64,000 nucleotides of DNA from a virus: positions 25,041 through 89,040 of the IMG/VR virus record IMGVR_UViG_3300032213_002091; one strand, written 5' to 3'. Position numbers and translations under genes: made by a program. Numbering within the stretch: position 1 is the first letter of the stretch; each line of letters opens with the position of its first letter. Below, piece after piece: positions 2,519 through 44,003 of the stretch. Under the pieces are notes generated by a model that had not been told where the DNA came from, did no database searches, and worked only from the letters and a program-made list of their open reading frames with translations.

Positions 2519-2527
2519 GGGTAAAAC
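2519..2527 (+). promoter_or_regulatory. GGGTAAAA box (putative late promoter), unit 2549 onward
   Basis: GGGTAAAAC 14 nt after the stop of the adhesin gene and 30 nt before the ATG at 2549. It is one of a series of identical boxes at the same position relative to virion genes. No Shine-Dalgarno sequence precedes the ATG. Confidence 0.6.
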
Positions 2528-2548
2528 TAAACAGTCTTCAACCCACAG

Positions 2549-2803
2549 ATGGCCCCTAGACGACGCAAAACACCTTCGCAGATCGAACCGAGTACAATTG
2601 AAACTATGGAAGACGAATCAACATTTAGCCTGGAAGAAACGGTTGAAACTCCTTTGGAAACAGTTGAAGTAGTTGAAACGGTAAAAGAACCTTTGGAGCC
2701 GAAACCAACAGGTCGAACGATTTCTCCGCCGGTTGCACCCGTTCCACCCAAACGCCATCCCCGAAACTTACCGAAATTTTCACAGTTTCGTAAGGACATT
2801 TGA
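2549..2803 (+). CDS. small acidic protein of unknown function
   Basis: 84 aa with a basic start, a middle very rich in Glu, Thr and Val (repeating ET-VE steps, probably disordered or extended) and a proline/basic end. First gene after a GGGTAAAA box and directly before the OB-fold spike-like gene. No family recognised. It may be a baseplate or assembly accessory, judging only by position. Confidence 0.6.
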   Translation: MAPRRRKTPSQIEPSTIETMEDESTFSLEETVETPLETVEVVETVKEPLEPKPTGRTISPPVAPVPPKRHPRNLPKFSQFRKDI

Positions 2804-2805
2804 GA

Positions 2806-3609
2806 ATGCACCAGCCCAAACTCAGAGCTTCTGAATTTGTAAGCCAGTTTGTTGCAATGCTCAATGCAACTGAGGCGAACATGAAGTTTGCTGGACTGCC
2901 TCGGGGAACGCTTCGTGGAACGATTGTGGATATCAACGATCCGCTGGATCGGGGAAGAGTGAAGGTCATCTTTGACGACCACAACATCGAAATTCCCCAA
3001 ATCTCTGGTGCCACCGGAGAGTTTTCCGCCGAGCGCGAAGGCCAACAAGCCAAACCATCACACTGGATTGACACTTCCCCTGCGTTCAAGGGGAAACAAC
3101 CGAAAGGATTGGTCGGAAAGCGTGTAAACATCGTACCGTCAAGCGGAGAGTACCAGTACGCCATCCTCCAAGATGTCTTGTACGACCCCCAACTTCTGAC
3201 TTCAAAGGCAGAGAAAAACCTCAAGATGCCGGACAACAGCACGATGATTCGGCTGCCGGTATACCCCGCAGGAAGCCTTCCGCCCGCATCCAAAGAAAAC
3301 CACGGTTGCACCGTGATTGAAGAAGGGGGGCCAATGAGCTCCGACTGGTTGTGTGTCTGTCTGAAACGAAACGGCAGCTATATCTGGGTCCGCCACGTTG
3401 ACTTAGCACATGGTCACGCAGGCGAAAACGATGGAACTCAGCCAAACGACAGCCGTGGCGACGCAGAACAGCCTGTCAAGGAGCAATCCATTTGGGACTT
3501 TGTTTTCCCCACTTCGGCAAAGGAAATGAGCAAAAACTCTGCTTACGGAACTTCTCCTCGCCCAAACCCCTACGGCGGAAAAGCCACCTGGTACAAACCT
3601 CCCTCTTGA
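2806..3609 (+). CDS. baseplate spike/hub protein with gp5-like OB fold
   Basis: 267 aa from ATG 2806, chosen over TTG 2800 because an AAGGA lies 9 nt upstream of the ATG. Residues about 30-65 carry the gp5/VgrG OB-fold signature (RGTIVDINDPLDRGRVKVIF), where a D-P-x-x-x-G-R-V-K-V strand pair is diagnostic. The rest lacks an obvious lysozyme or triple-helix motif. The C-terminal 70 residues look disordered. A role in the central spike or hub of a contractile tail is inferred, consistent with the hub and tape measure at 44-49 kb. Confidence 0.65.
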   Translation: MHQPKLRASEFVSQFVAMLNATEANMKFAGLPRGTLRGTIVDINDPLDRGRVKVIFDDHNIEIPQISGATGEFSAEREGQQAKPSHWIDTSPAFKGKQPKGLVGKRVNIVPSSGEYQYAILQDVLYDPQLLTSKAEKNLKMPDNSTMIRLPVYPAGSLPPASKENHGCTVIEEGGPMSSDWLCVCLKRNGSYIWVRHVDLAHGHAGENDGTQPNDSRGDAEQPVKEQSIWDFVFPTSAKEMSKNSAYGTSPRPNPYGGKATWYKPPS

Positions 3610-3612
3610 ACT

Positions 3613-4035
3613 ATGGCAATTCGTCGTCCCGGAATTCAATCGCCCACTTGGCTCTTTCAGGATTTTCTTTACTTTGAAGATCCTCCGAGTGAGTTACGAT
3701 ACCTATTGGTGAAGTGGGACGGTGAGATTTTCGATCGAGTCTCAGAAACTTTCGACTATAGCAATCCGCCTTACGCTGACGATGAGCAGCGCGGCGGTTC
3801 AATCGTTGCTCGAATCGACTACACGATCGAAGGTTTTCTTGTTACAATCGACTCCTGGGAGGTGAACTGGAGGGACGAGTGGCCGCTCCGGTTGGCTTCG
3901 AATTACCTTCGAAATTGCAAATACCGGGAGTTGGACGGTTACGTCATTCAAGTTCCACAAGACGCTTATTCGTTCTGGGTGAGTGAGTACTTCCACCCGT
4001 TCTCCAACGACCCTCGTACCAATCTTTATAGCTGA
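3613..4035 (+). CDS. conserved-looking protein, tail/neck module, function unknown
   Basis: 140 aa, rich in aromatic residues (W, Y, F) and predicted mostly beta. Starts 3 nt after the spike-like gene stop and lies 8 nt before the DUF1320 gene, so it is almost certainly co-translated in the tail/connector operon. No recognised domain. A head-tail connector or baseplate part is plausible from position only. Confidence 0.6.
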   Translation: MAIRRPGIQSPTWLFQDFLYFEDPPSELRYLLVKWDGEIFDRVSETFDYSNPPYADDEQRGGSIVARIDYTIEGFLVTIDSWEVNWRDEWPLRLASNYLRNCKYRELDGYVIQVPQDAYSFWVSEYFHPFSNDPRTNLYS

Positions 4036-4043
4036 GGAAGCTG

Positions 4044-5123
4044 ATGGCTGCGCCTAAGATCAAGGAAATTCTAGTTTCGACACCGACGACGGTTGTTCTG
4101 TACTTTGACGCGCCACTGGACACAAATGTTCCGGTTCCGCTTACTTCCTTTACCGTCAACTACGGGCAGTACGGGGTGGAAACCCTGATCTATTCTTCGG
4201 ACACGATGGTGTCTCTTGGGTTGGACAGCACTCTAACTCCCTGGGACCAAGCATTCGTTTCCTACGAGCCGCCTCTTGACCTCAACCTTTGCCTGCGCGG
4301 GCCGATTCCCCCTACGGCGAACGACGTTGTCAAGAAACGCAATGCCTCTCGCGCTTTTTATCGCGTTGCAGCGAGAAACACTCTTGCACCGGATGAAACA
4401 ACCGATGGCTCTCGAGTTCAGTCTAACCTGGGCCAAACCATCGGCGGATACGGTTTCCCTTACCAGAACCGTTCCGGCGTACTCACAAACAACAAGACCG
4501 ACCCAAGGAGTGCCTCACCCGACGACTTCATTATCGCGTTCGGCCTCAAAGAAGCCATTCAGCTAACAAACATTGATGACGCAGCAGCCACGACAGTGAA
4601 TGTGGCGAAGCTGCACATGGCGATTCAAGACGCCAACTCTCTGATTGACTCGTATATTGAGCAGTCGGGTAAGGCTGGCATGGTGCTAATCACAAGCAAT
4701 CGCCGCCGCACCGCACTCACAATCGCCCGTTACTACCTCGACACGGTTCGCCGCAGAGAAGACGTCTACAAGGATTACGACGCCGCTCTGAAGCAGATGC
4801 AGGCCGAGATGGGAATGACTGCGATTCGCGCAGGAAATGGGGACTCCGCCATTGATACGCCTCAGGGAATTATGCGGTCCTGGCGCATTCCTCAACGTTA
4901 CAACTCGGTTTCTGGCAAAGGTCTTTCAGGCTGGACAACCGACACCGCTGGAGACCAGGCCCCGGATTACCGCTTCGGTTGGGGCGCAATCGGGCAGAAT
5001 AACGACTTCCCGAACTGGATTACGGCCAACAATTTCCTGGAGTTGGGCGGAACGCTGCAGATTGCTGAACCGAACGATGCTGGCGGCTGGTATATCGACG
5101 GCTCAAACACGAATTTCCCGTAA
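4044..5123 (+). CDS. DUF1320 (Mu Gp36-like) connector protein with N-terminal SwmB-like domain
   Basis: 359 aa. Residues 1-95 resemble an SwmB/Ig-like beta domain (VVLYFDAPLD, VSLGL, QAFVSYEPP). Residues about 155-260 match the DUF1320/Gp36 helical pattern: DDFIIAFGLKEAIQLTN, then A-x2-DANSLIDSYIEQ and ARYYLDTVRRREDVYKDYDA. Gp36 family members act near the head-tail junction. A GAGGAAG sequence precedes the ATG. The fusion of a surface-type beta domain to Gp36 is unusual. Residues 275-359 are of unknown function. Confidence 0.6.
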   Translation: MAAPKIKEILVSTPTTVVLYFDAPLDTNVPVPLTSFTVNYGQYGVETLIYSSDTMVSLGLDSTLTPWDQAFVSYEPPLDLNLCLRGPIPPTANDVVKKRNASRAFYRVAARNTLAPDETTDGSRVQSNLGQTIGGYGFPYQNRSGVLTNNKTDPRSASPDDFIIAFGLKEAIQLTNIDDAAATTVNVAKLHMAIQDANSLIDSYIEQSGKAGMVLITSNRRRTALTIARYYLDTVRRREDVYKDYDAALKQMQAEMGMTAIRAGNGDSAIDTPQGIMRSWRIPQRYNSVSGKGLSGWTTDTAGDQAPDYRFGWGAIGQNNDFPNWITANNFLELGGTLQIAEPNDAGGWYIDGSNTNFP

Positions 5124-5126
5124 ACC

Positions 5127-6344
5127 ATGGAATTGAATACAATCAGTCGTATCGAGCAGTTCATTGTTGATGCTCTTGTTGCCTCCCCCCTGATTCCAAT
5201 CAGCGTGAATGTTCTTCGCCTCGCAGACGCGATCGAAAACGAGGGAGTGGTGCAGCAAACTAACAACATCGTCGTGCGTTACACGGGTTCTTCAAACACA
5301 GTCAAGAATCGCATTCCGATGGTTTTCGAGCGGAGTATGAGCTTCGAGCTGAACTTCTCCTGCCAAAACTATCTCACCTCCTCGGGTCACGATTTCGCCA
5401 CTCAACTTCTTGCAGGCGCTTTCAACACGATAAACGGCAGTGTTCCGTCCGGTGCGTCAGTGCAGACGATCGAACCTTTCACGTGTCAAAACGAACTGTT
5501 CACTGGCATCAGTCCCGAATCTCAGTACACCTACACTCAAACTTACGTTCTCACGATTGAGGAAACGCTGCCGTATGTTGCCCTTGACCCTTGCGTTCAA
5601 CGTGGCGATTGCCGGCAAATCTTTCCGGGACCGAACGTTGAAACGCGCCTTCCCCTGGCCGGAGTTGTTGACACTGCAAGCGGAGAGATTTACGTTCCGT
5701 GGTACACGGGAATCAAGTTACCCCTGGAAGACTATTCCGCCCCGTACGGTGTTCGTTGGAGCAATCCTGCGACTTCGTCAGGAAACTGGGTGTTTGTTTG
5801 CGACCCGGACACGGTATTCCTCCCAGATCCACTCAACCAACCGATTTATCTTTTGAGCAACAACAGCTATACTGAAGATGGCAGGTTAGTTGTGACCGTC
5901 TGGGACGCCGAGACCTCGGAACCGATTGAGGAAGTTTTCTACTCGCCGACCGGAAAGTTTTTGGCGCGGTACGCGATCGAGCTGTGGAATGACGTCGCAG
6001 GCAAAGCCGATCCGATTTCCGACCGGGCTTCAAAATATGCTGAGTGGTTCACAGGCATGAACGTAGGTGAGTTTGCGGTCATTACCGGAGCGTACACCTT
6101 CTTGAACATCGACCCGCTGAACCCGGAGGCAAAACAACTGTACCTCGAGGGCGGTTCCGTGATCGGAATTGTCCCCGAGACGTTCATTCAGACCCCGAAG
6201 GGAAGGTACTACTTTGTGGCTAAATCTCCTCAAGGGAAAGGGTGGATTCTGGAAGATACATTCCAGCTCGCCTCTATCAACTCACTGTGGAAGTTAGGTT
6301 GCGTTCCCTGTGAAGGCAATCCCGGTCCCATCGCCCCTTGTTAA
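5127..6344 (+). CDS. tail completion/terminator-like protein (Gp37/DUF1834-like N-terminus)
   Basis: 405 aa. The first 150 residues resemble the Gp37/DUF1834 family: an N-terminal helix, a beta segment with R-YTGS and R-S-SFELNFSCQNY, then a helix and a strand ending in an ETLPYV segment. The order Gp36 then Gp37 matches Mu-like phages and supports both calls. Residues about 165-405 are an extra Cys-containing region (CVQRGDC, CVPCEGNPGPIAPC at the end) with no recognised family. Inferred role is tail terminator or connector. Confidence 0.5.
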   Translation: MELNTISRIEQFIVDALVASPLIPISVNVLRLADAIENEGVVQQTNNIVVRYTGSSNTVKNRIPMVFERSMSFELNFSCQNYLTSSGHDFATQLLAGAFNTINGSVPSGASVQTIEPFTCQNELFTGISPESQYTYTQTYVLTIEETLPYVALDPCVQRGDCRQIFPGPNVETRLPLAGVVDTASGEIYVPWYTGIKLPLEDYSAPYGVRWSNPATSSGNWVFVCDPDTVFLPDPLNQPIYLLSNNSYTEDGRLVVTVWDAETSEPIEEVFYSPTGKFLARYAIELWNDVAGKADPISDRASKYAEWFTGMNVGEFAVITGAYTFLNIDPLNPEAKQLYLEGGSVIGIVPETFIQTPKGRYYFVAKSPQGKGWILEDTFQLASINSLWKLGCVPCEGNPGPIAPC

Positions 6345-6502
6345 TGGACTCATCACAAGAACTTTGGAACAGTTACCACATCGCCGTGCAGCGCGGCGAC
6401 ATGGAAGAAGCAAAGAAGATCTTGCAAAAGATCGTGTCATACAAGGGGAATCCCCCGCCACCGAGAGGTGGTTGCTCCAAATGTAGAAAGAGGCTTTACT
6501 GA
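6344..6502 (+). CDS. small CxxC protein, unknown function
   Basis: 52 aa. The ATG shares its A with the TAA of the preceding gene (TAATG) and its stop overlaps the next ATG (ATGA). A short N-terminal helix is followed by a PPPPRGGCSKCRKR end, a single CxxC knuckle in a basic tail that could bind zinc or nucleic acid. Sits directly before the candidate small terminase. Confidence 0.6.
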   Translation: MDSSQELWNSYHIAVQRGDMEEAKKILQKIVSYKGNPPPPRGGCSKCRKRLY

Positions 6503-6780
6503 TGGCTAAATCACGCGAAGACATTATCAAGCAGAAAGAGATTCTGGCTCAAGACACCCTTCTTGTGGCGAAAGACGCTCTGGATCAGCTTGCCAACCAG
6601 ATGGAAGAGTGCTCCACTCGCGACCTCGTTTCCATCTTCAACAGTGCGATCAAAGCGCACAGAGAAATTACTTCGGACATCGTTGCCCTGACCCAAGTTG
6701 ATTCAAAAAGCGAGCAGGAATTAGCTGTTGCGTACGACGGAAAAGTTGGGGAGCTTCTGAAAAAACTGACGGGGGATTGA
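6502..6780 (+). CDS. candidate small terminase subunit
   Basis: 92 aa, nearly all alpha-helical and charged (IIKQKEILAQDTLLVAKDAL, then IKAHREITSDIVAL). Position immediately before the large terminase (1 nt gap), size and helical makeup fit a short TerS. No helix-turn-helix can be asserted. The call is by context. Confidence 0.45.
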   Translation: MAKSREDIIKQKEILAQDTLLVAKDALDQLANQMEECSTRDLVSIFNSAIKAHREITSDIVALTQVDSKSEQELAVAYDGKVGELLKKLTGD

Positions 6781-6781
6781 T

Positions 6782-8515
6782 ATGCGTCCCGTAATCACGA
6801 AAGCCAGCCAGCTCGAAGAACACAGCTCGTGGAGAAAATACCAGCGAGGCATACGTGAACTGACGCTTATGGAAGCACCACGCATGGTGATTCAGGATTT
6901 TCGGTACAAAGCTGCTCGCGATTGTTTTCTTGCTTTTTGCGACATTATGAAGCACGGCGACCTGCAGGTTGCCCCGTTTCATGAACTGATCGGCTCAGCG
7001 TTTGAAGACCTTGCTACGCGAAGGTACAAGCGATTGATTGTTTCCTGCCCGCCACGATCGGGGAAGTCAATGCTTGCGACCATGTTCCTAGCATGGCTTC
7101 TCGGGCGAGACCAAAGGACACAACACGTCATTGCCTCTTACGGTGCGTCCCTCTCCTTCAAATTTCACCGTGAAGTAGTTCACATGATGAAGTCGAAGGA
7201 GTTCAAGCGGGTGTTCCCTGAGTGGCTTGGATTCTCACCGGACTCAAAGTATGACATGGTCGGCGGCGGTTACATTCTTGCCACTTCCGTTGGCGGGGTT
7301 CTAACCGGTTTCACCGCCGGAACAACAGATATGGACAGCCCTGGCGTTGGCGCCATGGTGATTGACGACCCGCTCAAATCTTCGGACTCTAAACAAGCAC
7401 TCGACAACCTTGAATCTTGGTGGCAAGAGCAGGCGTCCACCCGAAGAACCAACCACTACTGCCAGATGGTTATCGCAACTCGCTTCCACGAGAAAGATTT
7501 GCATGGCGTTCTGATGGAAGGCGACGGCCTTTACGACGAAGTTCACAACCCGTTTGGTTGGCGTTGGATCAATATCGCAGGACTTTGCGAAGACCCGCGC
7601 ACTGACCCGCTTGAGCGGCAGATCGGTGATTCGCATTGGGGTGACAATCCGACTTTTTCTGTGCCGATGCTTGAGTCGCAGAAGAAGATTATGGGAAGCT
7701 TCAAATTTGCGGCGCTTTACCAAGGCGTTCCCGTTGCTGCGGAAGGCCAGATTGTCAAGAACAGTTGGATTGAGGTTATCGAAGAAGAAGATTGCCCGCC
7801 ACTTGATGTCGTGTGGTTAGCGGCTGACTGCGCTTTCTCCGAGAAACAAATGGCGGACGAAACCGCGATTTGCGTGGCTGGGATTAGTATGCGAGATCCG
7901 ACTGTGATCTACATTCGGGAGATCGTGAAAGGTCGATGGGGTTTCCCCGACTTGGTTGAAGCCGTGAAGCAAAACTACACATATTATCAGGCAAAAGTTC
8001 TATGTATCGAAAAAGCAGCTTCGGGGCACTCTCTCATTCAAGTTCTTCGAAAAGAAGCGAGAGTTCCGATCGAAGAGATGAAGCCGTTGAAGTCGAAGAC
8101 TACGAGACTTCAGGCCGTTTGTCCTTTACTGGAGAACAGCCGGGTTAAACTGGTTCAAGGGCACTGGACTGACACATTCATCAAGGAATTAACCTCATTC
8201 CCGTTTGTCCGTCACGACGACAGTACGGACGCTTTTGCTTGGGCGCTCACTTACTATGCAATGAAAATGGACGTTGTTGATCGTAACCTGCAGGACACGA
8301 TTATTCAAAACAAGCGATTCAAAGGAGATTTACTTCGCGATGGGCTCGGGGATAAGTCCGTCTTTGGGGAAATTCGCACAGGACGGCAGAAGTTGTTCTC
8401 GGGCGACACCGCAATTAACGACCCGGACTACGACGCTTCAACGATGGGTGTTGATGCTCGTTCACCTTTCGTGAGCGGAAGACGGGGTGGAAGAGGACGA
8501 CTCGGCTACGAATGA
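6782..8515 (+). CDS. terL: terminase large subunit (ATPase and nuclease)
   Basis: 577 aa DNA-packaging motor. Walker A CPPRSGKS at about residue 89-97, Walker B GAMVIDDP at about 189-197, and coupling segment MVIATRFHEKDL. The RNase H-like nuclease domain starts with VWLAADCAF (acidic residue about 347) and a second acidic strand VLCIEKAASG at about 410. The order (TerS-like, TerL) and operon with connector genes agree. Typical length for the family. The C-terminal 70 residues are basic and Gly/Arg-rich. Confidence 0.93.
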   Translation: MRPVITKASQLEEHSSWRKYQRGIRELTLMEAPRMVIQDFRYKAARDCFLAFCDIMKHGDLQVAPFHELIGSAFEDLATRRYKRLIVSCPPRSGKSMLATMFLAWLLGRDQRTQHVIASYGASLSFKFHREVVHMMKSKEFKRVFPEWLGFSPDSKYDMVGGGYILATSVGGVLTGFTAGTTDMDSPGVGAMVIDDPLKSSDSKQALDNLESWWQEQASTRRTNHYCQMVIATRFHEKDLHGVLMEGDGLYDEVHNPFGWRWINIAGLCEDPRTDPLERQIGDSHWGDNPTFSVPMLESQKKIMGSFKFAALYQGVPVAAEGQIVKNSWIEVIEEEDCPPLDVVWLAADCAFSEKQMADETAICVAGISMRDPTVIYIREIVKGRWGFPDLVEAVKQNYTYYQAKVLCIEKAASGHSLIQVLRKEARVPIEEMKPLKSKTTRLQAVCPLLENSRVKLVQGHWTDTFIKELTSFPFVRHDDSTDAFAWALTYYAMKMDVVDRNLQDTIIQNKRFKGDLLRDGLGDKSVFGEIRTGRQKLFSGDTAINDPDYDASTMGVDARSPFVSGRRGGRGRLGYE

Positions 8516-9469: not shown

Positions 9470-9922
9470 TTAACCTGCTGCACTAAAGTCCCTGAAGTAA
9501 AGACCAAGTTTGAGAGAGGGCTTAAACTGAAACCGTTTTAGAAGTTTGTCCGAGATTTTACCATTCTTTCGGAGAACAGCCACCCCTTTTACGCAAGGCC
9601 GATTCAAATCACGCAAAAGTTTGAAGGTTCTTTCTAGAATTTTAGGTCTATCCCCGTGGTTCGGTAGAATAAAGACCCCTAAATAGTAGTATTTGCCCTT
9701 CAGGTACGGGGAGTATCTGGCATCCCCTGTAACCGTTCCGACAACTGTATTGGTGGGATTGTGTAAAATCGCCATTACGACTTTGTTAACCCGTACTTTC
9801 GCAAGATTGAGGCTGTAAACTTTGTTGTTCACCCATAACTCTACAGCTTGAGTTTGGACAACCGCAGATTTCAGGCCGTCGCCGAAGAGTAAGCTGTATT
9901 CGGTAGTTTGATCTTCAGTCAC
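9470..9922 (-). CDS. unknown protein, possibly acetyltransferase-like, partner of desaturase
   Basis: 150 aa from a GTG at 9922. Alternating beta segments are followed by a helix (PKILERTFKLLRDL) and a late strand (VKGVAVLRKNGKISDKLLKR), vaguely like the C-terminal half of a GNAT fold, but the acetyl-CoA loop is not clear. Directly upstream of, and probably co-translated with, the desaturase. A GGGTAAAA box reading on this strand lies at 9961-9954. Confidence 0.6.
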   Translation of the reverse strand: MTEDQTTEYSLLFGDGLKSAVVQTQAVELWVNNKVYSLNLAKVRVNKVVMAILHNPTNTVVGTVTGDARYSPYLKGKYYYLGVFILPNHGDRPKILERTFKLLRDLNRPCVKGVAVLRKNGKISDKLLKRFQFKPSLKLGLYFRDFSAAG

Positions 9923-9942: not shown

Positions 9943-10842
9943 ATGTATTTCGATTTTACCCACCAGCCTGTGTTCGTTGAGAGTGGGGTAAAATTCACTG
10001 TACGAGTTGCCCTTCCAACCATGACTCGTTCCATTCGTTCTGAAGGGGGTGATAAGGATGTAATCCTGTTAAGCAGCAAAGTGTATGACCTACCCACCGA
10101 CTGTATCACTCCCTTAAACATGTTAGATTCAAAGACAAAGCGCAAGGCTCGCCGTGCTGAAAATGCCCAGATGCTAGAACAATCCTACCACAAAGGAATG
10201 GATGTCATGCCTCCCAAGTTTCTGACTTGGCGGCAAGAAGATCTGTGGAATTCCCTCAAGAAAAACACTGTTACTCTCGCCCATGGCTGTGCCGGAACCG
10301 GGAAAACGCTGATTGCGTTGCATTACGGATTGTATGGTGTCGCCTCCGGCGATTTCAACAAAGTGTACTACGTTCGAAGTGACGTGGGTGTTGAATTCCA
10401 GCGCGGGCGCGGAGCGCTGCCTGGAGACCTTTCCGAGAAGATCGCACCCCTGATTGCGCCTGTTCTTGACAACTTGCCCTGCATCATGAGATCGCACGGT
10501 GCAAGTGAGTACCTGCTGAACAAGAAAATTATCGAGCCTGTTCTCCTGGAAGACATTCGGGGACGCTCACTCAACGAGGCTTTCATCATTGTTGATGAGG
10601 CTCAGAATTTCCTCCCTTCACAAATCAAAACCGTCCTGACTCGCGTCGGCAAAGATTCGAAGATCCTTCTGATTGGTGACACGAAGCAGACCGATATGGA
10701 AGTGTTTCGAAGGGAAAATGGTTTGGTCGACGCTATTCACCGACTGCGCCACCTGTCGGAAGTTGGAATCGTAGAGTTCTCAAAAGAGGACATCGTTCGT
10801 AACTCCGTTATCGCTCACATTCTCGACCGTTACGAAGACTGA
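9943..10842 (+). CDS. phoH: PhoH-like ATPase
   Basis: 299 aa from ATG 9943, which has an AAGGGGA upstream, or 273 aa from ATG 10021, the start predicted by the internal GGGTAAAA box. Walker A GCAGTGKT at about residue 115-122, Walker B IIVDEAQN at about 213-220, and sensor segment LLIGDTKQTD. PhoH is a P-loop ATPase/RNA helicase-related family common in marine phages; its role is unsettled. Divergent from the desaturase pair. Confidence 0.92.
   Translation: MYFDFTHQPVFVESGVKFTVRVALPTMTRSIRSEGGDKDVILLSSKVYDLPTDCITPLNMLDSKTKRKARRAENAQMLEQSYHKGMDVMPPKFLTWRQEDLWNSLKKNTVTLAHGCAGTGKTLIALHYGLYGVASGDFNKVYYVRSDVGVEFQRGRGALPGDLSEKIAPLIAPVLDNLPCIMRSHGASEYLLNKKIIEPVLLEDIRGRSLNEAFIIVDEAQNFLPSQIKTVLTRVGKDSKILLIGDTKQTDMEVFRRENGLVDAIHRLRHLSEVGIVEFSKEDIVRNSVIAHILDRYED
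9954..9961 (-). promoter_or_regulatory. GGGTAAAA box on minus strand for the desaturase pair
   Basis: TTTTACCC on the plus strand reads GGGTAAAA on the minus strand, 39 nt before the GTG at 9922 and inside the start of the phoH frame. It is the only exact inverted copy I noticed in the window, and it sits where the plus-strand boxes sit relative to their genes. Confidence 0.6.
9986..9993 (+). promoter_or_regulatory. GGGTAAAA box inside the 5' end of phoH
   Basis: GGGTAAAA 35 nt before an in-frame ATG at 10021 (residue 27 of the longer phoH frame). With the inverted box at 9954-9961 it forms a divergent pair separated by 24 bp. Confidence 0.45.
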
Positions 10843-13270: not shown

Positions 13271-13279
13271 GGGTAAAAC
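13271..13279 (+). promoter_or_regulatory. GGGTAAAA box before 13302
   Basis: GGGTAAAAC immediately after TAA 13268-13270 and 31 nt before the ATG. Leader lacks a Shine-Dalgarno. Confidence 0.6.
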
Positions 13280-13301: not shown

Positions 13302-14024
13302 ATGCTCGGTTCTTTTTCAGAGGAAGCTCTCTTCAAGTATTCGGAGATGGTTTCACAAACACAATCTGCAGACTTCTCCGAAGGAGAGAGTTACGACTTC
13401 ACACGGTGTATGCGACCTAACGGGTCTATCTACGGTACGCGAGGGCAATGCCGCAAAGGTGTAGAATCCACCAAAGGCGCAGCAGCCAAAGTAGCGGAAA
13501 GAGCAGCGAAACTGGCACGTCAGAGAAAGAATCAAACACCTGAAAGAAAAGACATGTATGACCGACTCGCAGCGAACGCCGCCGGTCGTGCGCGTGAACC
13601 TTTTGAGAAGGGCGATACCAGGGGGAATATGACGCCCGGTGAAAGGGAAAGACGCAGAGAAGCTGACGCGTACGAGTCAAGTCTATACGGGCATAAAAAT
13701 AACACTTACGGGCCAGGGGGTGTGACCAAGGATACGGGAAAGAAGAGAAAGCAAGAAGCACTCGGCGAATTCGCCAAGGCTGGATTACCATCAAGAGTTG
13801 ACGAGGCCATCGCAAGGGTTATGGAGCACCCGAAATTACAGAAATACGTTGACAAAAACGCCGCCTACGATGATATTGCAGCTACGGTACCAAAAAAAGT
13901 TCTGAAGAAAGTGTTGGGGTGGACCGACAAAGACCTCGTGGCAATTGTTAGGGGGACAGACCCTTACGAGGGAACTATTTACGAGGACGACGAAGGGAAT
14001 TACCAGTTTTACGGGGCGGCCTGA
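13302..14024 (+). CDS. Cys-cassette protein of the accessory block
   Basis: 240 aa. Residues 32-54 carry FTRCMRPNGSIYGTRGQCRK, a two-cysteine cassette of a type I recall from cyanobacterial and cyanophage proteins. The middle (60-150) is a basic, Ala/Arg/Lys-rich helical region. The C-terminal part (about 155-240) is a compact alpha/beta region ending in an acidic stretch. No enzyme motif is visible. A virion-internal or maturation role is only suggested by the block it sits in. Confidence 0.6.
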   Translation: MLGSFSEEALFKYSEMVSQTQSADFSEGESYDFTRCMRPNGSIYGTRGQCRKGVESTKGAAAKVAERAAKLARQRKNQTPERKDMYDRLAANAAGRAREPFEKGDTRGNMTPGERERRREADAYESSLYGHKNNTYGPGGVTKDTGKKRKQEALGEFAKAGLPSRVDEAIARVMEHPKLQKYVDKNAAYDDIAATVPKKVLKKVLGWTDKDLVAIVRGTDPYEGTIYEDDEGNYQFYGAA

Positions 14025-14026
14025 GC

Positions 14027-14034
14027 GGGTAAAA
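14027..14034 (+). promoter_or_regulatory. GGGTAAAA box before 14062
   Basis: GGGTAAAA 2 nt after TGA 14022-14024 and 35 nt before the ATG; no Shine-Dalgarno. Confidence 0.6.
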
Positions 14035-14061: not shown

Positions 14062-14424
14062 ATGAGCAACAGAATTGGAGGCGACTTCGACATGGACGCC
14101 GTTGAAGCATTTCGCGATGCGTACGCATCTCGTCTAATGACTCCGGAGGATCAAGACGTTGATGCGTTCACAGGTCTCCCCACTGGCGAAATCTCAAACA
14201 CTTCTCCGTGGCTTGCCCACACAGGATTGTGGAAATACCCAAGCGGAAAAGGCCCCGACGACGATCTGAAACAACCCTTCCAACCGGAATCCTACTACGA
14301 GGAGGAAGAGACCGACGAGGATGAGGAGCTCACTGAAGAAGAGATTGATACCCTTATCGATGAAATTCTTGACGAAATTAGAACGGAGGGAGACGATGGG
14401 TCTACTGACGAAGACAACGAATAA
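14062..14424 (+). CDS. acidic protein, unknown function
   Basis: 120 aa. N-terminal half mixed, C-terminal 45 residues extremely acidic (EEEETDEDEELTEEEIDTLI), so probably disordered or a DNA mimic-like tail. Overlaps the next gene by 29 nt. No recognised family. Confidence 0.6.
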   Translation: MSNRIGGDFDMDAVEAFRDAYASRLMTPEDQDVDAFTGLPTGEISNTSPWLAHTGLWKYPSGKGPDDDLKQPFQPESYYEEEETDEDEELTEEEIDTLIDEILDEIRTEGDDGSTDEDNE

Positions 14425-14717: not shown

Positions 14718-14725
14718 GGGTAAAA
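14718..14725 (+). promoter_or_regulatory. GGGTAAAA box before 14751
   Basis: GGGTAAAA 1 nt after TAA 14714-14716 and 33 nt before the ATG. Confidence 0.6.
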
Positions 14726-30730: not shown

Positions 30731-30739
30731 GGGTAAAAC
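30731..30739 (+). promoter_or_regulatory. GGGTAAAA box before 30782
   Basis: GGGTAAAAC 11 nt after TGA 30718-30720 and 51 nt before the ATG; TATATC follows 3 nt after the box. Confidence 0.6.
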
Positions 30740-33208: not shown

Positions 33209-33217
33209 GGGTAAAAC
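33209..33217 (+). promoter_or_regulatory. GGGTAAAA box before 33245
   Basis: GGGTAAAAC 6 nt after TGA 33200-33202 and 36 nt before the ATG; TATAAA follows 4 nt after the box. Confidence 0.6.
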
Positions 33218-33244: not shown

Positions 33245-34021
33245 ATGCCAACTCTAATTTTCCCGTCGCCTGCTTACAACGGACAGATCTACCCTGATCC
33301 CCCCATCGTAGGTGTAGATCAATATCAGTATAACGAGCAATTTGACACTTGGGAGTTGCTTTCAAGCGGACCTGGACCGGTTGGGCCTGTCGGGCCACCG
33401 GGACCGCCAGGACCTTCTGGCACTCCGGGTACTCCCGGAACTTCTGGTTCACCTGGACCTACAGGTTCACCTGGACCTACAGGTTCACCTGGGCCTACAG
33501 GACCAACTGGTACTCCTGGAAATAATGGGACTCCTGGTTCACCGGGTACTCCTGGGACTCCTGGTTCACCTGGGCCTACAGGTTCGCCGGGGCCGGAAGG
33601 ACCTACGGGACCTGTGGGGCCTCCCGGGGGAGGGTCAGAATATACTTTCACGGACTTTACAACAAGCGTACTTCCTGCAGGAGGAGTGCAAGACTTCCAA
33701 CTTGCGTTGGGTGGTTTATTCCACTTGGTGGCAATTTCTTCGGACTTGCCTATGTGGATTCGCGTTTACGGGGACTCAGCATCGAGAGCCGCTGACACAA
33801 GGACATCTCCGGGAGGAACTCCCCCTTTAAGCGGAACCGGTTTCTATGCCGAAGTTGTAACGACCACGGCAGACGAGACAATCGACTTCGCACCCTTGCC
33901 AGCGGTTTATGCAGGGTTTGGCCTAACTTTCTTCAGAGTGGTAAACATGGGAGTCAGCTCTGTGGCTTTCCAGTTGCAGTTCAAAACGGTCGAAGTCGTT
34001 CCTGGCCTCACACCTGGCTGA
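33245..34021 (+). CDS. collagen-like fibre protein
   Basis: 258 aa. Residues about 43-128 are uninterrupted Gly-X-Y triplets ([16 protein letters not shown]), with many G-T-P and G-S-P, i.e. proline in the Y position, the position hydroxylated by prolyl 4-hydroxylases. An N-terminal 40-residue head and a C-terminal 125-residue beta domain ([15 protein letters not shown]) flank the shaft. Expected to form a trimeric rod. Coupled to the next collagen-like gene (9 nt gap). Confidence 0.82.
33445..33500 (+). repeat. 18-bp tandem repeat in collagen shaft
   Basis: Three successive copies of GGTTCACCTGGACCTACA (last one with G for A), encoding GSPGPT. Part of the Gly-X-Y coding array and likely length-variable. 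Confidence 0.7.
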
Positions 34022-34030: not shown

Positions 34031-35467
34031 ATGGCACTCGACAAAGTTCAACTGCTGAATAATACCGGGGTAGCAGCCGGAACATACGTTAACCCGAACC
34101 TCACCGTAACCTCTGACGGCAGAATTTCGAGTATTTCTTCGGATCCTACTCCTGGCCCTGCGGGACCACCTGGTACTCCGGGAACTAACGGGACTCCTGG
34201 TTCACCTGGGCCTACAGGTTCTCCTGGACCTACAGGGCCAACCGGTCCAACCGGGCCAACTGGTACTCCGGGGAATGATGGGACTCCTGGTTCACCGGGG
34301 CCTACAGGTCCAACTGGTACTCCTGGAACTGACGGGACTCCTGGTTCCCCTGGGCCTACGGGTCCAACCGGTGATCCTGGCACCCCTGGAACTGACGGGA
34401 CTCCTGGTTCCCCTGGGCCTACAGGACCAACCGGTGATCCTGGCACCCCTGGAACTGACGGGACTCCTGGTTCCCCTGGGCCTACAGGACCAACCGGTCC
34501 AACTGGGCCTACAGGACCCACAGGTCCCACACCGTTCATCCCCTCCGGATCCCCGGCAAATAAAATTGTCTCCCCGTTAGAAGTTTTAACAGGAACTTAC
34601 TTCTGTAATGATTTCACCCTTAACAGTGGCACAAGCTGCTACATTCGGGACACGGTTTACATCATGGCCCGTGGCAACGTAATTATCGACGGCCTTATAT
34701 CAGGCGACGGATCCACCGCGAATGGTCCTCCCCCGATGAATTATGCCTATTTAGGGAGCCAATGGATTTCAACAGGGGTTGGCCAAGGCGGTCAGTTTGG
34801 AAACTACGGAAACTACAACGGTGCAGGTATTGCCGGAGGGCGGACGTCCATAGGCGGTTTGGCCTCTGACGCGATTGTGAATTTACGCGGTTCAGATGGT
34901 GCCTCAGGGTACATGGCTAATTCGGACACGGTAACCGTTTCTGGTCATTACTCTTCGGGGGGTCTTGCCGGAAAGACCCTCATCATTCGAGCGTTAGGAT
35001 CCATTCTAATTGGTCCCAGTGCTGTAATTAACTGCAATGGGGCCTGGGGACAAAATTGGAACCTTCTATTCCCCTTCCCCGCGACGCTTTTGTACTCAGG
35101 TGCCGGTGGTGGATCAGGGGGCGCAATTATTTTAGACGCTGACGGGGATTGCATCAATAGTGGGAGTCTTGCCGCCACCGGTGGCAACGGAAGCGATGGT
35201 CTAAATGGTACTTATGGTGGTGGTGGTGGTGGTGGTGGTATTATTATCGTTCAGTCGCGTTATGGGACCTCCTCGGTAGGGACTGCGATTGTAAGCGGGG
35301 GACTTGCGGGCAACAGTTCAGGTACTACCTTGGGTTCAGGGGGCGGAGGAGGTTGCGGTGGGTTTGGCGGAAATGGGGGATTCGGGTACGTACCTGGTGA
35401 TCCCACTCCTGTTGCTCCGTATAACGGCCTAGCAGGAGTTGTTCGACAATGGGGTACTCCTTGGTAA
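34031..35467 (+). CDS. collagen-like tail fibre with Gly-rich tip
   Basis: 478 aa. Residues 1-36 are the shared fibre anchor ([28 protein letters not shown]). Residues about 40-167 are Gly-X-Y triplets with 63-bp tandem repeats. The C-terminal 310 residues are a beta-rich, Gly-rich tip ([13 protein letters not shown], polyglycine at about 396-403, [16 protein letters not shown]), reminiscent of glycine-rich receptor-binding tips of phage adhesins. Probable receptor-binding fibre. Confidence 0.8.
34325..34513 (+). repeat. 63-bp tandem repeat, three units
   Basis: GGAACTGACGGGACTCCTGG begins at 34325, 34388 and 34451, period 63 bp (7 Gly-X-Y triplets), with near identity between units. Indicates recent expansion of the collagen shaft. 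Confidence 0.85.
35216..35239 (+). repeat. (GGT)8 microsatellite encoding polyglycine
   Basis: Eight GGT triplets in a row inside the Gly-rich tip of the collagen-like fibre. Slippage would change glycine number in frame. Confidence 0.85.
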
Positions 35468-36177: not shown

Positions 36178-36185
36178 GGGTAAAA
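36178..36185 (+). promoter_or_regulatory. GGGTAAAA box before 36212
   Basis: GGGTAAAA 34 nt before the ATG. The 39-nt spacer after the previous stop also holds two copies of TCAAGACTTA (36147-36156 and 36161-36170). Confidence 0.6.
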
Positions 36186-36211: not shown

Positions 36212-37627
36212 ATGACACTCGACAAAGTTCAACTCCTGGACGACAGCGGGGTAACCCCTGGAAGTTACACCCTTACCAATCTTACGGTGGGTGCGGATGG
36301 AAGACTCACAGCCGCTTCTAGTGGCTCTCTGAATGCTACAGGTGTGACTCCTGGAAGTTACAATCTTTCCAGCATTACGGTGGGTGCGGATGGGAGACTC
36401 ACAGCCGCTTCCACTCCCACAAGTATTAACTTGCCTTCTATCGCAAACCCCGGTGACGGGGATATCACTAGTGCGGGTGGGTCCGACGGAATATTCACTA
36501 TATCCAACTCGTCTAACGACACACCAATGTTGCTAGGGGCCACAACAGGTGGTGTTATGGGTCCTAAAGTTGTATTAGATCCTCGTCCGAGCAACTGTTA
36601 CACGTGGCCTTTCGTTCTGCCGGGGTCATCCCCTAATGGTTATTTCTATGTCAAAGGTAACTTACTACTTGGAACTCAGTTTGATGACTCGGGGGAACTA
36701 TCCAGCACAGGTGGCAGTGACGGCAATTTCGGCATATTTAATGGAGCGGAAACCCTAGGCGACCCTATCAACACTACCTCAAGGTCTATTTCTTTCTGGA
36801 CAAAAACTTACTCAAATAATAACACGGAGTGCAGATTTACTATTAACCAGTACGGTTCTACATCTCTTCAAAGTTTGGGGTACTTAGGTCAACTTATTGG
36901 TGTAGGTGGTGGTGCTTTAGGGTCCAGCGATATGGTCGTTGATGGTGGCACTGATGGGCAGTTCGTTATTTTCAATAACAGCGGCGCTGCTGCCAGGATG
37001 ATATCCCTTGCCATTAACAACGAATCTTTAAATGGGCCCGACGCATTGCTCCGGTGCTACAGGGATGGTGGTACTGGAGCACGCATTGTAGATTGCCCCC
37101 TCCCTGGAACTACCTTTGATGTGAACGGTACTAAACTGTTCCGAATCGAACATCCTATCGATAGCTCTAAAGACCTCGTTCATGTTTCAATCGAAGGGCC
37201 AAGAGCCGATCTAATTTACCGCGGAAACGTAAAACTCATAAACGGTGGGGCGACCGTCGATTTAGACGAAGAGTATGGGCTGATTCCGGGAACTTGGAAG
37301 TCGCTTTGCAGAAACCCCCAGGTTTGGATTACAAGTGTAGATGGTTGGGAGCCCTGCAAAGGCTCCGTTTCTGACCAAATCCTTACAATATACTCCAAAG
37401 ACTCAAATTCTAAGGAAACAGTTAGCTGGTTGGTGGTGGCGGAACGGAAGGATTCGGCTATGTATGGCCCCTCTAGTGATGAAGAGGGTAGACCGATTCT
37501 TGAACCAAACAGAAGGCCCCCAAACAACCCTCACCCCTACCCGGATTTTCCAAATTCACCAGTTCAACAGACTCAGTCAAACTCTAGTGAGAGTTCTTCA
37601 GAAGACGACGCAGCAAAACTTCCATAA
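36212..37627 (+). CDS. tail fibre, paralogue of 29604
   Basis: 471 aa. Anchor module LDKVQLLDDSGVTPGSY with two VGADGRLTAAS repeats; central Gly/Asn-rich beta region with two GGSDG- or GGTDG-type repeats (STGGSDGNFGIFN, VDGGTDGQFVIFN); C-terminal domain at about 305-440 shared with 29604 (FRIEHPIDSSKDLVHVSIEG, LDEEYGLIPGTWKSLCRNPQ, WLVVAERKDSAMY). A Pro/Ser-rich tail follows. Its last 55 bp overlap the 3' end of the minus-strand gene at 37573. Confidence 0.72.
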   Translation: MTLDKVQLLDDSGVTPGSYTLTNLTVGADGRLTAASSGSLNATGVTPGSYNLSSITVGADGRLTAASTPTSINLPSIANPGDGDITSAGGSDGIFTISNSSNDTPMLLGATTGGVMGPKVVLDPRPSNCYTWPFVLPGSSPNGYFYVKGNLLLGTQFDDSGELSSTGGSDGNFGIFNGAETLGDPINTTSRSISFWTKTYSNNNTECRFTINQYGSTSLQSLGYLGQLIGVGGGALGSSDMVVDGGTDGQFVIFNNSGAAARMISLAINNESLNGPDALLRCYRDGGTGARIVDCPLPGTTFDVNGTKLFRIEHPIDSSKDLVHVSIEGPRADLIYRGNVKLINGGATVDLDEEYGLIPGTWKSLCRNPQVWITSVDGWEPCKGSVSDQILTIYSKDSNSKETVSWLVVAERKDSAMYGPSSDEEGRPILEPNRRPPNNPHPYPDFPNSPVQQTQSNSSESSSEDDAAKLP

Positions 37628-38328
37628 AGTCCTTCCGGAGTCTCATATTCACCGCAACCCTTACTTCGGTTGGCACTGGCGAGGACGATTGCGTACCTCG
37701 CCTTTTCATTATGGAACTTTTTCCACGACTCCCAGAGCGCCTCGAGTCGAAACTTCTTCGCAGTCGGCGGACCAACCAACGCAATGTCCGTGTACTTCAG
37801 TTTATTTTCAGTCATGAAAATATCGGCAATCTCGCTGAACGACAGCCCAGTATGATCGACGTCTGTGCGCATTCCTCGACGAATTTGCTTGCCCGTTAGG
37901 CAGCAGACGCAGGGCAACTCAACCTGATCTCGAAATCTCTTCAACTGATCTTTGACGGCGCCACGCATCGCAGACTTCACGGCATTGTAATGTTTTTCCT
38001 CCGAAGTTGCCGCAGTGGCGATCTTCTTGGTCGGATACAACGCCTCCACCAGCTTGCTCTTTGAAATCGGCTGGCGAGTTCCAGCTCTCTCGAGTGAGAG
38101 CATCTTCACTTTTCGCCCACCGGCAATCTCAACGTTGCGAAGGTAAACAGCAGTCTCAGAATCCTGGCCCAGTTTCCCCCACTGTTCGGTCAATCGGCAG
38201 CTGCGAAGAATGAACTCGGCAGGCTCACCACACAGACGACTGCCTGCGCGATGGTTGCCAATTATTCGGCCAATCTTTTCGTTGTACTGACCTTTGTTCA
38301 GATCGAAAGTAGTTTTTCCAAGTGTCAT
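37573..38328 (-). CDS. HNH-like protein (DUF3223/DCL-like), minus strand
   Basis: 251 aa. The middle has CVCCLTGKQIRRGMRTDVDH then SEIADIFM, i.e. a CxxC followed by an xDH motif as in HNH nucleases and DUF3223 proteins; ISKSKLVEALYP precedes it, and a further Cys lies near the end (SKGCGEYE). Lone minus-strand gene convergent with, and overlapping by 55 bp, a fibre gene. A free-standing mobile HNH endonuclease is plausible. A one-mismatch GGGTAAAg lies about 48 nt upstream on its strand. Confidence 0.55.
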   Translation of the reverse strand: MTLGKTTFDLNKGQYNEKIGRIIGNHRAGSRLCGEPAEFILRSCRLTEQWGKLGQDSETAVYLRNVEIAGGRKVKMLSLERAGTRQPISKSKLVEALYPTKKIATAATSEEKHYNAVKSAMRGAVKDQLKRFRDQVELPCVCCLTGKQIRRGMRTDVDHTGLSFSEIADIFMTENKLKYTDIALVGPPTAKKFRLEALWESWKKFHNEKARYAIVLASANRSKGCGEYETPEGLYGSFAASSSEELSLEFD

Positions 38329-38368
38329 GACATATTTCGCGGAATATCCCGCAGTTTCCCTCGATAAC

Positions 38369-38395
38369 TTTACCCACCACGGCTCTCGCTATAGT
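38369..38395 (+). promoter_or_regulatory. TTTACC-N15-TATAGT promoter
   Basis: TTTACC 38369-38374, 15-nt spacer, TATAGT 38390-38395, followed by the gene at 38406. Same architecture as six other sites in the metabolic regions. Read on the other strand, the TTTACCC is GGGTAAA in front of the divergent HNH-like gene. Confidence 0.6.
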
Positions 38396-39571: not shown

Positions 39572-39599
39572 TTTACACGTGGCACTCTTCCCCTATACT
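39572..39599 (+). promoter_or_regulatory. TTTACA-N16-TATACT promoter
   Basis: TTTACA 39572-39577 directly after the exonuclease stop, TATACT 39594-39599, ATG 25 nt further at 39624. Confidence 0.6.
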
Positions 39600-41773: not shown

Positions 41774-41776
41774 TCA

Positions 41777-41784
41777 GGGTAAAA
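41777..41784 (+). promoter_or_regulatory. GGGTAAAA box before the tail module
   Basis: GGGTAAAA 3 nt after TAA 41771-41773 and 31 nt before ATG 41808. Marks the switch from metabolic back to virion genes. Confidence 0.65.
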
Positions 41785-41807
41785 GTTAACAGCTAAGCTG
41801 AATAAGG

Positions 41808-42491
41808 ATGTCTGATGCCGCCTACCAGGCGAAGTACCTGTCGATGGCGCGTCTCTTGTGGGAGGCGGCAGAGGGCTTGCCTGAAAGAATTTCTGATAAC
41901 TACTCTAATTATCTCCGGCACGATTATTCTGACGGTTCCGTTTCTCTCGCGCCGCTGATCAACAAGTTTGACTTTGCCGATGGCCTGGAACCCGAAGAGT
42001 GGGACGAGGCCGTCGAGATTCTTGGCAAAGTTGACCCGTCTGATTGGCCATTTGTTGACGACATCGTTTCAGTCAACACAGAAGAACTTCTGCGAATCTA
42101 CGACGAAGACGCAACTCCTGGGTGCGAGACTCAGGACTTCATCGAAGATAGCCTAGGGTGCGGTGAAAAGTGTGAGCAGGTGCTGCAGAGGGTAATTGAG
42201 TCCGTGTTTGGCTCACCTGTAGAAAAGATTCGTAGCAATTCCGGCGACTTTCCGAAAGAAGAGAACAAATTTCTCCAGAAAAGCGACGGAACATTTGCCG
42301 GCACGTTTATGCACGGCGACCACAAATTCAACTTTGAAATTGCGCCCACTGAGAGCGGCTGGCTTTGCACATACCGCATGAAGGCGGACTCGCTTGACCG
42401 TCTGCCACCGGTTCCGAATGAGCACAAAGACGAAGACGACGAAACGAAGAAGGACTACACACGCAGAGTGCGAAATCGGGGGTGGAAATAA
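41808..42491 (+). CDS. tail-module protein, unknown function
   Basis: 227 aa, acidic and helical in the first half (WEAAEGLPERISDNYSNYL), three Cys in the middle (ETQDFIEDSLGCGEKCEQVL), alpha/beta C-terminus. First gene of the tape-measure operon; the usual place of tail assembly chaperones, but no homology is visible. Overlaps the next ATG by 1 nt. Confidence 0.5.
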   Translation: MSDAAYQAKYLSMARLLWEAAEGLPERISDNYSNYLRHDYSDGSVSLAPLINKFDFADGLEPEEWDEAVEILGKVDPSDWPFVDDIVSVNTEELLRIYDEDATPGCETQDFIEDSLGCGEKCEQVLQRVIESVFGSPVEKIRSNSGDFPKEENKFLQKSDGTFAGTFMHGDHKFNFEIAPTESGWLCTYRMKADSLDRLPPVPNEHKDEDDETKKDYTRRVRNRGWK

Positions 42492-43267
42492 TGGCTAATC
42501 CTGGCGGTCCGCTGAACGTGGTCGGCATTACGCCGCAGCTTATTTCAAACTTAGTTACAACGAGCGTGAGCTCAGGAGTTATATCCAGCGCGAATCAACT
42601 CCTGGCAGGCGTTGCGAACCAGAGCCTCGCACAAGCGGGTTCAGCTTTGGTGGGGAATGCTGCCGGCAACCTCGTGAACGTCGGTATCAACTCTCTTCTT
42701 GGGACGCAAGTCGCTGGTGTTTCCGGTCTCAATTTGAACACCGGAGCAAACGTTCTTGCCTCGACGATCACACCTTTTGTTACAGGTGCGCTCGCGCAAG
42801 GAATCAACCAGTCGATTCAAAACAGTCTGAAAGGTGCTGGGCCACTTGGTCAAGTTCTGGCCGAGATCGGGACTGGCCTGGTAAATCAAGGCCTCAACGG
42901 TCTTACGAACTTGATTGGCGGGGGAATCACGCCTGGTTCGGGCTTAAGCTCTAGCAATGCCACGAGGTTTTTCCCCGGTGCTGGGGATGAGCCGGAAGCA
43001 AACTACAATGGCGGCGGTTCTTACACGCTGGGTTCAAATGGCCCCGACGTGGTGATTGCGATTCGCGCAGCAAACTCGGGTCCGCAGACTTTTGAGAACT
43101 ACTCTTCAATTTTCAACCCTACAACTCCAACCACGTTACCCTTAACAAGTGTAACGAATCCGGGCAAAAGTCAGAACTCAATTGTAAACCAACTCAAGAG
43201 CGCAGCGATAGGCGCAGTCGGGAGCATAGCAACCAGAGGACTTACAACAGCTTTGTCGAGGATATGA
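42491..43267 (+). CDS. tail/baseplate protein with hydrophobic helical core
   Basis: 258 aa from ATG 42491. Residues about 10-150 are Ala/Gly/Asn/Leu-rich low-charge helices (LLAGVANQSLAQAGSALVGN), the rest Gly/Ser-rich. Not clearly membrane-spanning. Lies just upstream of the LysM/CIS-type protein and the tape measure, so a baseplate or tail-tube-associated protein is inferred. Confidence 0.5.
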   Translation: MANPGGPLNVVGITPQLISNLVTTSVSSGVISSANQLLAGVANQSLAQAGSALVGNAAGNLVNVGINSLLGTQVAGVSGLNLNTGANVLASTITPFVTGALAQGINQSIQNSLKGAGPLGQVLAEIGTGLVNQGLNGLTNLIGGGITPGSGLSSSNATRFFPGAGDEPEANYNGGGSYTLGSNGPDVVIAIRAANSGPQTFENYSSIFNPTTPTTLPLTSVTNPGKSQNSIVNQLKSAAIGAVGSIATRGLTTALSRI

Positions 43268-43270
43268 TTC

Positions 43271-43993
43271 ATGGCCTATTCTGATAGTTTCTCGAATTCG
43301 TTCAAAACCGATTCGTTGATATACGACCCGGCAACGAAGGTCACTTTGACAAATGTTGACCCGAACGCGATAAACTCCTTGAGTTTTAACCCCGCCGCTT
43401 TCAACCCGAATGTTAACCTGGGACCCACAAGTTGGACCTTCATCTGCGCCCCGGAGGAAATCTCCTGGACGACTTCTAACGCAGTCAATCGCGTCGACAT
43501 CTTCGGTACAAACAGCCCGCCAGCAATTTCTGGGACCAAGGGGTTGCGTGAATTTACTCTGAACAATGCGCTCGTCGAGGGTTTCTCTCGCAACAAGACG
43601 GTCGAGGCCAAGGTTTCAGCGTTAGAGGACCTCTTAAAGTACAAGTCTTCGCTGTCCGGCGGTTTCGTTAACGTCCCTGTGTACCAAGTGTGGGCGAACC
43701 AGAAGGGTTACGGCCAGCAGGCATATTTCCTGCTCAAGAGTGTACAGGTTAAGGAAAAGATGCGCGATCTCACGGGTGACTCAACTCGTGCTTACGTTGA
43801 CGTCTCTTTCGTCGAGGTTCCGGCGTTTCAGGTGGACTCCGGTATTGACCAGGCACCTTTTTCACAACAAGGGGGGAACAGTTCTCTTGCCAGGATTAGC
43901 TTAGCGAACGCACAGGCGAATGTGGTGGCGTTAAAGGCGCAAGCTCAGGCCAAGGCAAAACCTGCCCCCAGAGCAAACCCTGCAAGGAGATAG
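43271..43993 (+). CDS. baseplate protein of the CIS/gp53-like (LysM-associated) type
   Basis: 240 aa. Residues about 53-120 (SWTFICAPEEISWTTSNA, then AISGTKGLREFTLNNALVEG) resemble the N-terminal domain of contractile-injection-system tube-adaptor/baseplate proteins, where F-x-x-P-E-x-I is followed by a gly-rich turn and a strand. The C-terminus is Ala/Lys-rich. Position before the tape measure fits. No LysM sequence is evident. Confidence 0.5.
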   Translation: MAYSDSFSNSFKTDSLIYDPATKVTLTNVDPNAINSLSFNPAAFNPNVNLGPTSWTFICAPEEISWTTSNAVNRVDIFGTNSPPAISGTKGLREFTLNNALVEGFSRNKTVEAKVSALEDLLKYKSSLSGGFVNVPVYQVWANQKGYGQQAYFLLKSVQVKEKMRDLTGDSTRAYVDVSFVEVPAFQVDSGIDQAPFSQQGGNSSLARISLANAQANVVALKAQAQAKAKPAPRANPARR

Positions 43994-43995
43994 CC

Positions 43996-44003
43996 GGGTA
44001 AAA
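43996..44003 (+). promoter_or_regulatory. GGGTAAAA box before the tape measure
   Basis: GGGTAAAA 2 nt after TAG 43991-43993 and 31 nt before ATG 44027. Confidence 0.6.

Follow-up and report, generated by a model that had tools for sequence, protein, structure and literature searches.

A 64,000-nucleotide stretch of viral DNA (bases 25041-89040 of virus record IMGVR_UViG_3300032213_002091, which totals 89,040 bases; hereafter the window) contains many copies of an 8-bp box, GGGTAAAA, most of them shortly upstream of genes for virion proteins. This raises the questions of what the box does and which protein reads it. A first-pass annotation of the window had proposed a phage-specific late promoter. 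We find that the box is probably the -10 element of such a promoter for virion (late) genes, read most likely by a phage-encoded sigma factor, here termed sigma-2, on the host core RNA polymerase.

Distribution of the box

In order to establish how often the box occurs, both strands of the window were searched. This yielded 18 exact copies, compared with 2.33 expected from 100 dinucleotide shuffles (standard deviation 1.48, maximum 6). All 14 copies listed in the first-pass annotation were confirmed as exactly GGGTAAAA on the plus strand, and four further copies were found, at 9986 (plus strand), 9954-9961 (minus strand), 53402 and 57300. The last two were rejected as promoters, as they lie within open reading frames (ORFs), where they are read as Gly-Lys-Thr codons, and are therefore probably coding coincidences. 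The whole record holds 24 forward copies and one reverse copy, while the reversed pattern occurs twice forward and once in reverse.

We next looked at related phages. A search of the phage collection with a 20-kb piece gave no close match at the DNA level, and neither whole DNA nor a fibre protein identified relatives there. At the protein level, Synechococcus phage S-CBWM1 (genus Aokuangvirus, MG450654) is the closest relative in culture; its genome is complete and has many virion genes in common with this virus (identities of 58% for terminase, 48.5% for sigma-1 and 56% for sigma-2, the two sigma factors described below). The host of the present virus is probably likewise a cyanobacterium. 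Many close relatives were present among uncultured IMG/VR contigs; 13 relatives' contigs were retrieved in full, and 12 related contigs were used to rank noncoding 8-mers. These genomes are related to one another, such that counts across them are not independent.

In the noncoding DNA of the 12 contigs, GGGTAAAA was the most enriched 8-mer (176 observed, 9.7 expected), and S-CBWM1 carries 33 forward copies and one reverse copy. The box was not enriched in T4-like and other cyanophages, including some that infect Synechococcus. Four cyanophages with SigF-like genes (S-CBS2, S-CRES3, Cr-LKS4 and MaAM05) were considered as carriers and showed no enrichment; nor did the contigs G007 and G010 (64% RNR identity), in which the enriched noncoding words are T-rich. 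The box is thus specific to this phage group. A literature search for the GGGTAAAA motif found mainly primer sequences and no description of it, though an earlier mention, for example in the S-CBWM1 genome paper, is possible.

Anatomy of the box

Alignment of 104 non-redundant sites gave the consensus (A/C)GGGTAAAA(C)(C/T), in which the base directly 5' of the box is never T. A peak of A lies 14 nt past the first G (61% of the 104 sites and 62% in a set of 147) and is followed by A-rich positions. This A is probably the transcription start site, and we infer from the layout a -10 element placed a few bases ahead of +1. Its first six bases, GGGTAA, fit the SigB/SigF-type -10 sequence GGG(A/T)A(A/T). 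Two variants of the box were also enriched, each with 27 copies observed: GGGTATAA (0.9 expected) and GGGTAAAG (3.3 expected).

Conservation in the -35 region is close to zero, at no more than 0.07 bits per column. Nine of 147 exact sites have GTTT at -20 to -18 relative to the first G, which is above chance (1.6 expected) but rare. A SigB-type -35 had at first seemed a defining part, being present in 16 of 147 sites against 1.4 elsewhere; however, about half of these were GGGTATAA sites that double as members of a second promoter-like class (see below), and this idea was rejected. Since GTTT at a spacing of N12-14 is mostly missing, the box is not a full SigB-type promoter. We also considered, and rejected, GGGTAAAA as a -35 element. 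Because the end of the box is often only 21-29 nt from the ATG, the +1 would then fall at or inside many ORFs, and there is no -10 at the right distance downstream.

Placement relative to genes

In the whole record, 21 of the 24 forward copies start 17-85 nt ahead of a gene start, a zone that makes up 6.6% of the record (p=3e-22; the start of PhoH was shifted by hand for this count). Across 13 genomes, 155 of 268 exact boxes lie 17-34 nt upstream of a called start, compared with 189 of 3346 (5.6%) permuted 8-mers. The box is thus not equally common within coding sequence at random distances from starts, an outcome that the first-pass annotation had named as one that would speak against a promoter. 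Its description of the spacing was also borne out. In 12 of its 14 copies, the preceding stop codon is no more than 14 nt away; the gap is about 16 nt for the copy at 2519 and 39 nt for that at 36178. The ATG follows 30-36 nt after the first base of the box in ten copies and 49-76 nt after it in the remaining four. Measured from the end of the box, distances to the ATG are mostly 21-29 nt; box-to-ATG distances reach about 100 nt. In the case of PhoH, the start of the longest ORF (9943; 9943-10842) is probably wrong and ATG 10020 the true one, given that the latter fits both the box and the annotation of S-CBWM1, in which a box lies 38 nt ahead of the annotated PhoH start.

When mapped to S-CBWM1, the units headed by a box encode the tail sheath, portal, protease, major capsid protein and terminase, as well as PhoH with a virion protein, the baseplate wedge, tail fibres and the tape measure. 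Of the 30 first genes in the virion region, 18 carry a box, compared with none of the 16 in the DNA-metabolism segments (p=6e-5). The absence of the box from metabolic genes was therefore as had been described, whereas its presence in nearly every virion transcription unit was an overstatement: a majority have it (18, or 19 including PhoH, by crude gene calling). It is likely that transcription from the box would occur late in infection, the label "late" being taken from the virion identity of the downstream genes. The scarcity of Shine-Dalgarno sequences at the downstream starts, also pointed out earlier, is real but not distinctive, as matches of at least 4 nt occur at 34% of the genes with a box and at 40% of the other ATG genes, compared with 28% in shuffled sequence; it was accordingly discarded as a special trait of box genes.

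Two sequences related to the box were seen outside this pattern. A lone GGGTATAA at 52205-52212 lies directly past the primase stop codon and 2 nt ahead of the next called ATG, which is too close for it to be the promoter of that gene unless the start is miscalled. In S-CBWM1, a repeated intergenic element consisting of GATGTGAAAGATT followed by CACTGTCCCA adjoins several boxes, near 26640, 65870, 126610 and 132300.

Orientation of the box

Nearly all genes of these phages run in one direction. Strand bias is for this reason weak proof, and the few minus-strand genes provide a useful test. One such gene is conserved, and in seven of the 11 genomes that carry it GGGTAAAG is found on its own strand 21-39 nt upstream (39 nt in three genomes, 21-22 nt in four). 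Two further minus-strand genes have GGGTAAAA on their own strand, at 31 and 23 nt. The orientation of the box thus follows that of the gene on either strand, although the cases are few and one of them, the GGGTAAAG copy in the window, is ambiguous because it overlaps a plus-strand TTTACC element. The conserved gene itself (37573-38328, minus strand) encodes 251 amino acids and is of unknown function; most relatives have it, among them S-CBWM1 (gp123), in genomes whose genes otherwise run one way.

A second promoter-like class

The DNA-metabolism segments contain a different class of site, (G)TTTAC-N14-19-TATANT, with seven forward and no reverse copies in the record. In all box-bearing relatives but one, this class is also found in the forward direction only. 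Its sites include one before the DNA polymerase gene and others in an island with Pol III epsilon and an exonuclease. In this virus and in most relatives, a TATACT-like sequence lies shortly upstream of the start of sigma-1; a box precedes neither of the two sigma genes. If read by sigma-1 or by host SigA, the TTTAC/TATANT class would drive the DNA-metabolism and sigma genes, and the two classes together could produce an early/middle-to-late cascade.

Several sequences associated with this class were noted. The spacer of the site at 53509 contains a perfect hairpin, CGGGC-TTCG-GCCCG. Directly upstream of sigma-1, at 54768-54877 and at equivalent positions, GC-rich hairpins with GGGCGG/CCGCCC arms occur together with GGTTTACC and recur in the noncoding DNA of relatives; these may be terminators with sequence in common with the -35 of the second class. 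In S-CBWM1, a site of the second class lies before psbA (around 111144), where GTTTAC-N14-GGGTATACT combines features of both classes and comes near the SigB consensus.

Two phage sigma factors as candidate readers

The window encodes two proteins of the sigma-70 family, and two Sigma70_r2 genes were found in each of G000, G001, G003, G005 and S-CBWM1. Both sigmas are present in all box-bearing relatives whose contigs span the loci; contigs with one sigma end near the locus of the other. G007 and G010, with their related RNR and lack of box enrichment, have one distant sigma and no orthologue of either. Sigma-1 has the stronger sigma-70 match (Sigma70_r2, 3.7e-15) and also matches SigBFG (5.4e-13). 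Its regions 2 and 4 are joined by a low-confidence linker, and region 3 is absent. For sigma-2, SigB/SigF/SigG was the top-ranked family, matching across regions 2-3 (8.9e-11; 2.8e-14 for S-CBWM1 gp152). Its leading profile matches stop at region 3, its C-terminal helices contain no obvious helix-turn-helix in what is a weak model, and the stretch comprising regions 2.4-3.0 is nearly invariant among relatives. A search for a multisubunit phage RNA polymerase gene found none.

Taken together, these data make it very probable that the box is a promoter and, somewhat less so, that a phage sigma reads it. We propose that the A located 14-15 nt past the first G would be +1, with GGG at approximately -15 to -13 and TAAAA at approximately -12 to -8 forming an extended -10 element for which a -35 would not be obligatory. 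A phage-encoded sigma, most likely sigma-2, would read this element on the host core RNA polymerase, with its region 3.0 contacting GGG and its region 2.4 contacting TAAAA. The near absence of a -35 would follow from the lack of a recognizable region 4 in sigma-2.

A number of observations weigh against this proposal. The boundary between virion and metabolic regions was drawn by hand after the boxes had been seen, and the exact box is missing from 11-12 of the 30 virion-region first genes by our gene calls. Some S-CBWM1 boxes precede an HNH nuclease, NMN adenylyltransferase or the tRNA region, for which reason "virion" is to be understood as a majority rule. Sigma-2 and S-CBWM1 gp152 score 41.9 and 53.4 bits, respectively, and fall far short of the cut-off of 234 bits for the SigB/SigF/SigG family (TIGR02980); the AlphaFold model of sigma-2 is weak (pLDDT 69, pTM 0.40), and its fold matches are sigma factors in general. 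The minority of exact boxes with GTTT at SigB spacing (9/147, 1.6 expected) also counts against it, since GTTT would be dispensable for a sigma that lacks region 4. Finally, as both sigmas co-occur, phylogeny cannot say which of them reads the box.

The most serious competing explanation is that the roles are exchanged, with sigma-1 reading GGGTAAAA and sigma-2 or host SigA reading TTTAC/TATANT. The stronger sigma-70 match and the hit to SigBFG speak for sigma-1, as does its co-occurrence with the box in all relatives whose contigs cover it, and its region 4 could read the few boxes with GTTT at the right spacing. Yet the box class is nearly devoid of a -35, while sigma-1 lacks region 3 but has a good region 4, and the conserved -35 belongs to the other class. 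We therefore consider this arrangement unlikely, and sigma-2 rather than sigma-1 the likely reader.

A reader supplied by the host, such as the group 3 cyanobacterial alternative sigma SigF, with the phage sigmas otherwise engaged, is improbable. Such a reading would suit a probably cyanobacterial host and a -10 of the GGG(A/T)A(A/T) form known for SigB/SigF-type sigmas in other bacteria (PMC8346170); however, other cyanophages, even some infecting Synechococcus, lack the enrichment, which instead tracks both phage sigmas.

Less probable still is that the box acts in RNA, as a translation enhancer or processing site. Its nearness to starts, mostly 21-29 nt ahead of the ATG, and its presence in the RNA sense in all box genes would agree with this. 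Against it, the distance to the ATG can be as great as about 100 nt, the A peak is fixed to the box and not to the ATG, the box is carried by the first genes of spaced units, a known -10 consensus of sigma type matches it, and Shine-Dalgarno usage is about equal with or without it.

A phage single-subunit RNA polymerase is the least likely reader: short, strongly conserved promoters are typical of such enzymes, but none is annotated in the complete S-CBWM1 genome, none was detected by profile (with a silent control), and two sigma genes are present instead.

Table 1. Positions of the box, related promoter-like sites and sigma factor genes in the window.
Feature	Position	Strand	Context
Box	2519-2526	+	before unit 2549-8515 (head-tail adaptor to terminase large subunit)
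Box	9954-9961	-	31 nt before minus-strand ORF 9470-9922
Box	9986-9993	+	26 nt before probable PhoH start (ATG 10020)
Box	13271-13278	+	before 13302-14024
Box	14027-14034	+	before 14062-14424 (S-CBWM1 gp108-like)
Box	14718-14725	+	before 14751-15458
Box	17105-17112	+	before 17138-17650 and kinase-like 17647-19620
Box	19781-19788	+	before baseplate wedge-like 19830-23642
Box	23652-23659	+	before 23687-24073
Box	24076-24083	+	before tail fibre 24135-26378
Box	29528-29535	+	before 29604-30719
Box	30731-30738	+	before 30782-31813
Box	33209-33216	+	before 33245-34021 and fibre 34031-35467
Box	36178-36185	+	before 36212-37627
Box	41777-41784	+	before 41808-43993
Box	43996-44003	+	before tape measure-like 44027-47674
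GGGTAAAG variant	38368-38375	-	39 nt before conserved minus-strand gene 37573-38328
Second-class promoter-like site, TTTAC-N-TATAGT	38369-38395	+	
Second-class promoter-like site, TTTAC-N-TATACT	39572-39599	+	
Second-class promoter-like site, TTTAC-N-TATAGT	49087-49113	+	before 49122-50138, then primase
Second-class promoter-like site, TTTAC-N-TATACT	53509-53535	+	
Second-class promoter-like site, TTTAC-N-TATACT	58775-58801	+	upstream of RNR and sigma-2 genes
Second-class promoter-like site, TTTAC-N-TATATT	59755-59782	+	
Sigma-1, sigma-70 family phage protein, 199 aa	54878-55477	+	regions 2 and 4
Sigma-2, SigB/SigF-like phage sigma, 235 aa	63269-63976	+	regions 2-3; candidate box reader

Comparison with known systems

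Beyond the T4-like group, there are few cyanophages whose control of gene timing is known. If the proposed role of the box is correct, late operons could simply be read off from it in many uncultured genomes, and a promoter would be paired with candidate sigmas in a cultured phage-host system, S-CBWM1 and Synechococcus CBW1002. A wider reading, which we offer tentatively and to which we give somewhat less than an even chance, is that the two sigmas of this lytic cyanophage group have divided the sigma domains, one having regions 2 and 4 and serving the -35/-10 metabolism class, the other having regions 2 and 3 and serving the lone GGGTAAAA virion class; the system would then have a SigB/SigF-type origin independent of T4 gp55.

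SigB/SigF-type promoters of Bacillus and Streptomyces have the form GTTTAA-N12-14-GGG(A/T)A(A/T), in which GGG is nearly invariant and the -35 less conserved (PMC8346170). The box resembles these in its GGG-T-A-A/T -10, in the GTTT at N12-14 of a minority of sites and in the family that sigma-2 matches best. It differs in extending to TAAAA, mostly without a -35, in the lack of a recognizable region 4 in the candidate sigma, and in serving viral genes in a probably cyanobacterial host. Sporulation-type sigmas of Bacillota phages have been studied for altering host dormancy (PMC9429907); there, as here, a SigF/SigG-type sigma is borne by a phage, whereas in the present case the -10 to be expected for such a sigma is seen across the genome in a set of putative phage promoters. 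Early, middle and late gene classes are also known in the Microcystis phage Ma-LMM01, a freshwater cyanophage; its late promoters are SigA-like, with no phage-specific motif, and it lacks gp55 and gp33 homologues (PMC5780444).

The closest parallel is the T4 late promoter, TATAAATA, an 8-bp box of the -10 type that stands alone, with hardly any -35 or none, and is read by gp55 with gp33 and the sliding clamp gp45; a similar consensus has been reported in silico for cyanophage S-PM2 (PMC2988020). A T4-type late promoter was ruled out here, as TATAAATA does not occur as a class (one forward and one reverse copy in the record, none in S-CBWM1). The earlier contrast with T4 therefore stands as regards the sequence and the confinement of enrichment to this group, but not the architecture. 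Both are lone 8-bp boxes that lack a conserved -35 and serve virion genes; as we propose, the present box would, like that of T4, lie about one helical turn before +1 and use a phage sigma on the host core. What sets the present system apart is that GGGTAAAA replaces TATAAATA and that the candidate sigma is SigB/SigF-like, with a region 3. The box thus differs from the T4 late promoter in sequence more than in kind, and, if read as proposed, would be a lone -10-type late promoter derived from a sigma lineage other than that of T4 gp55.

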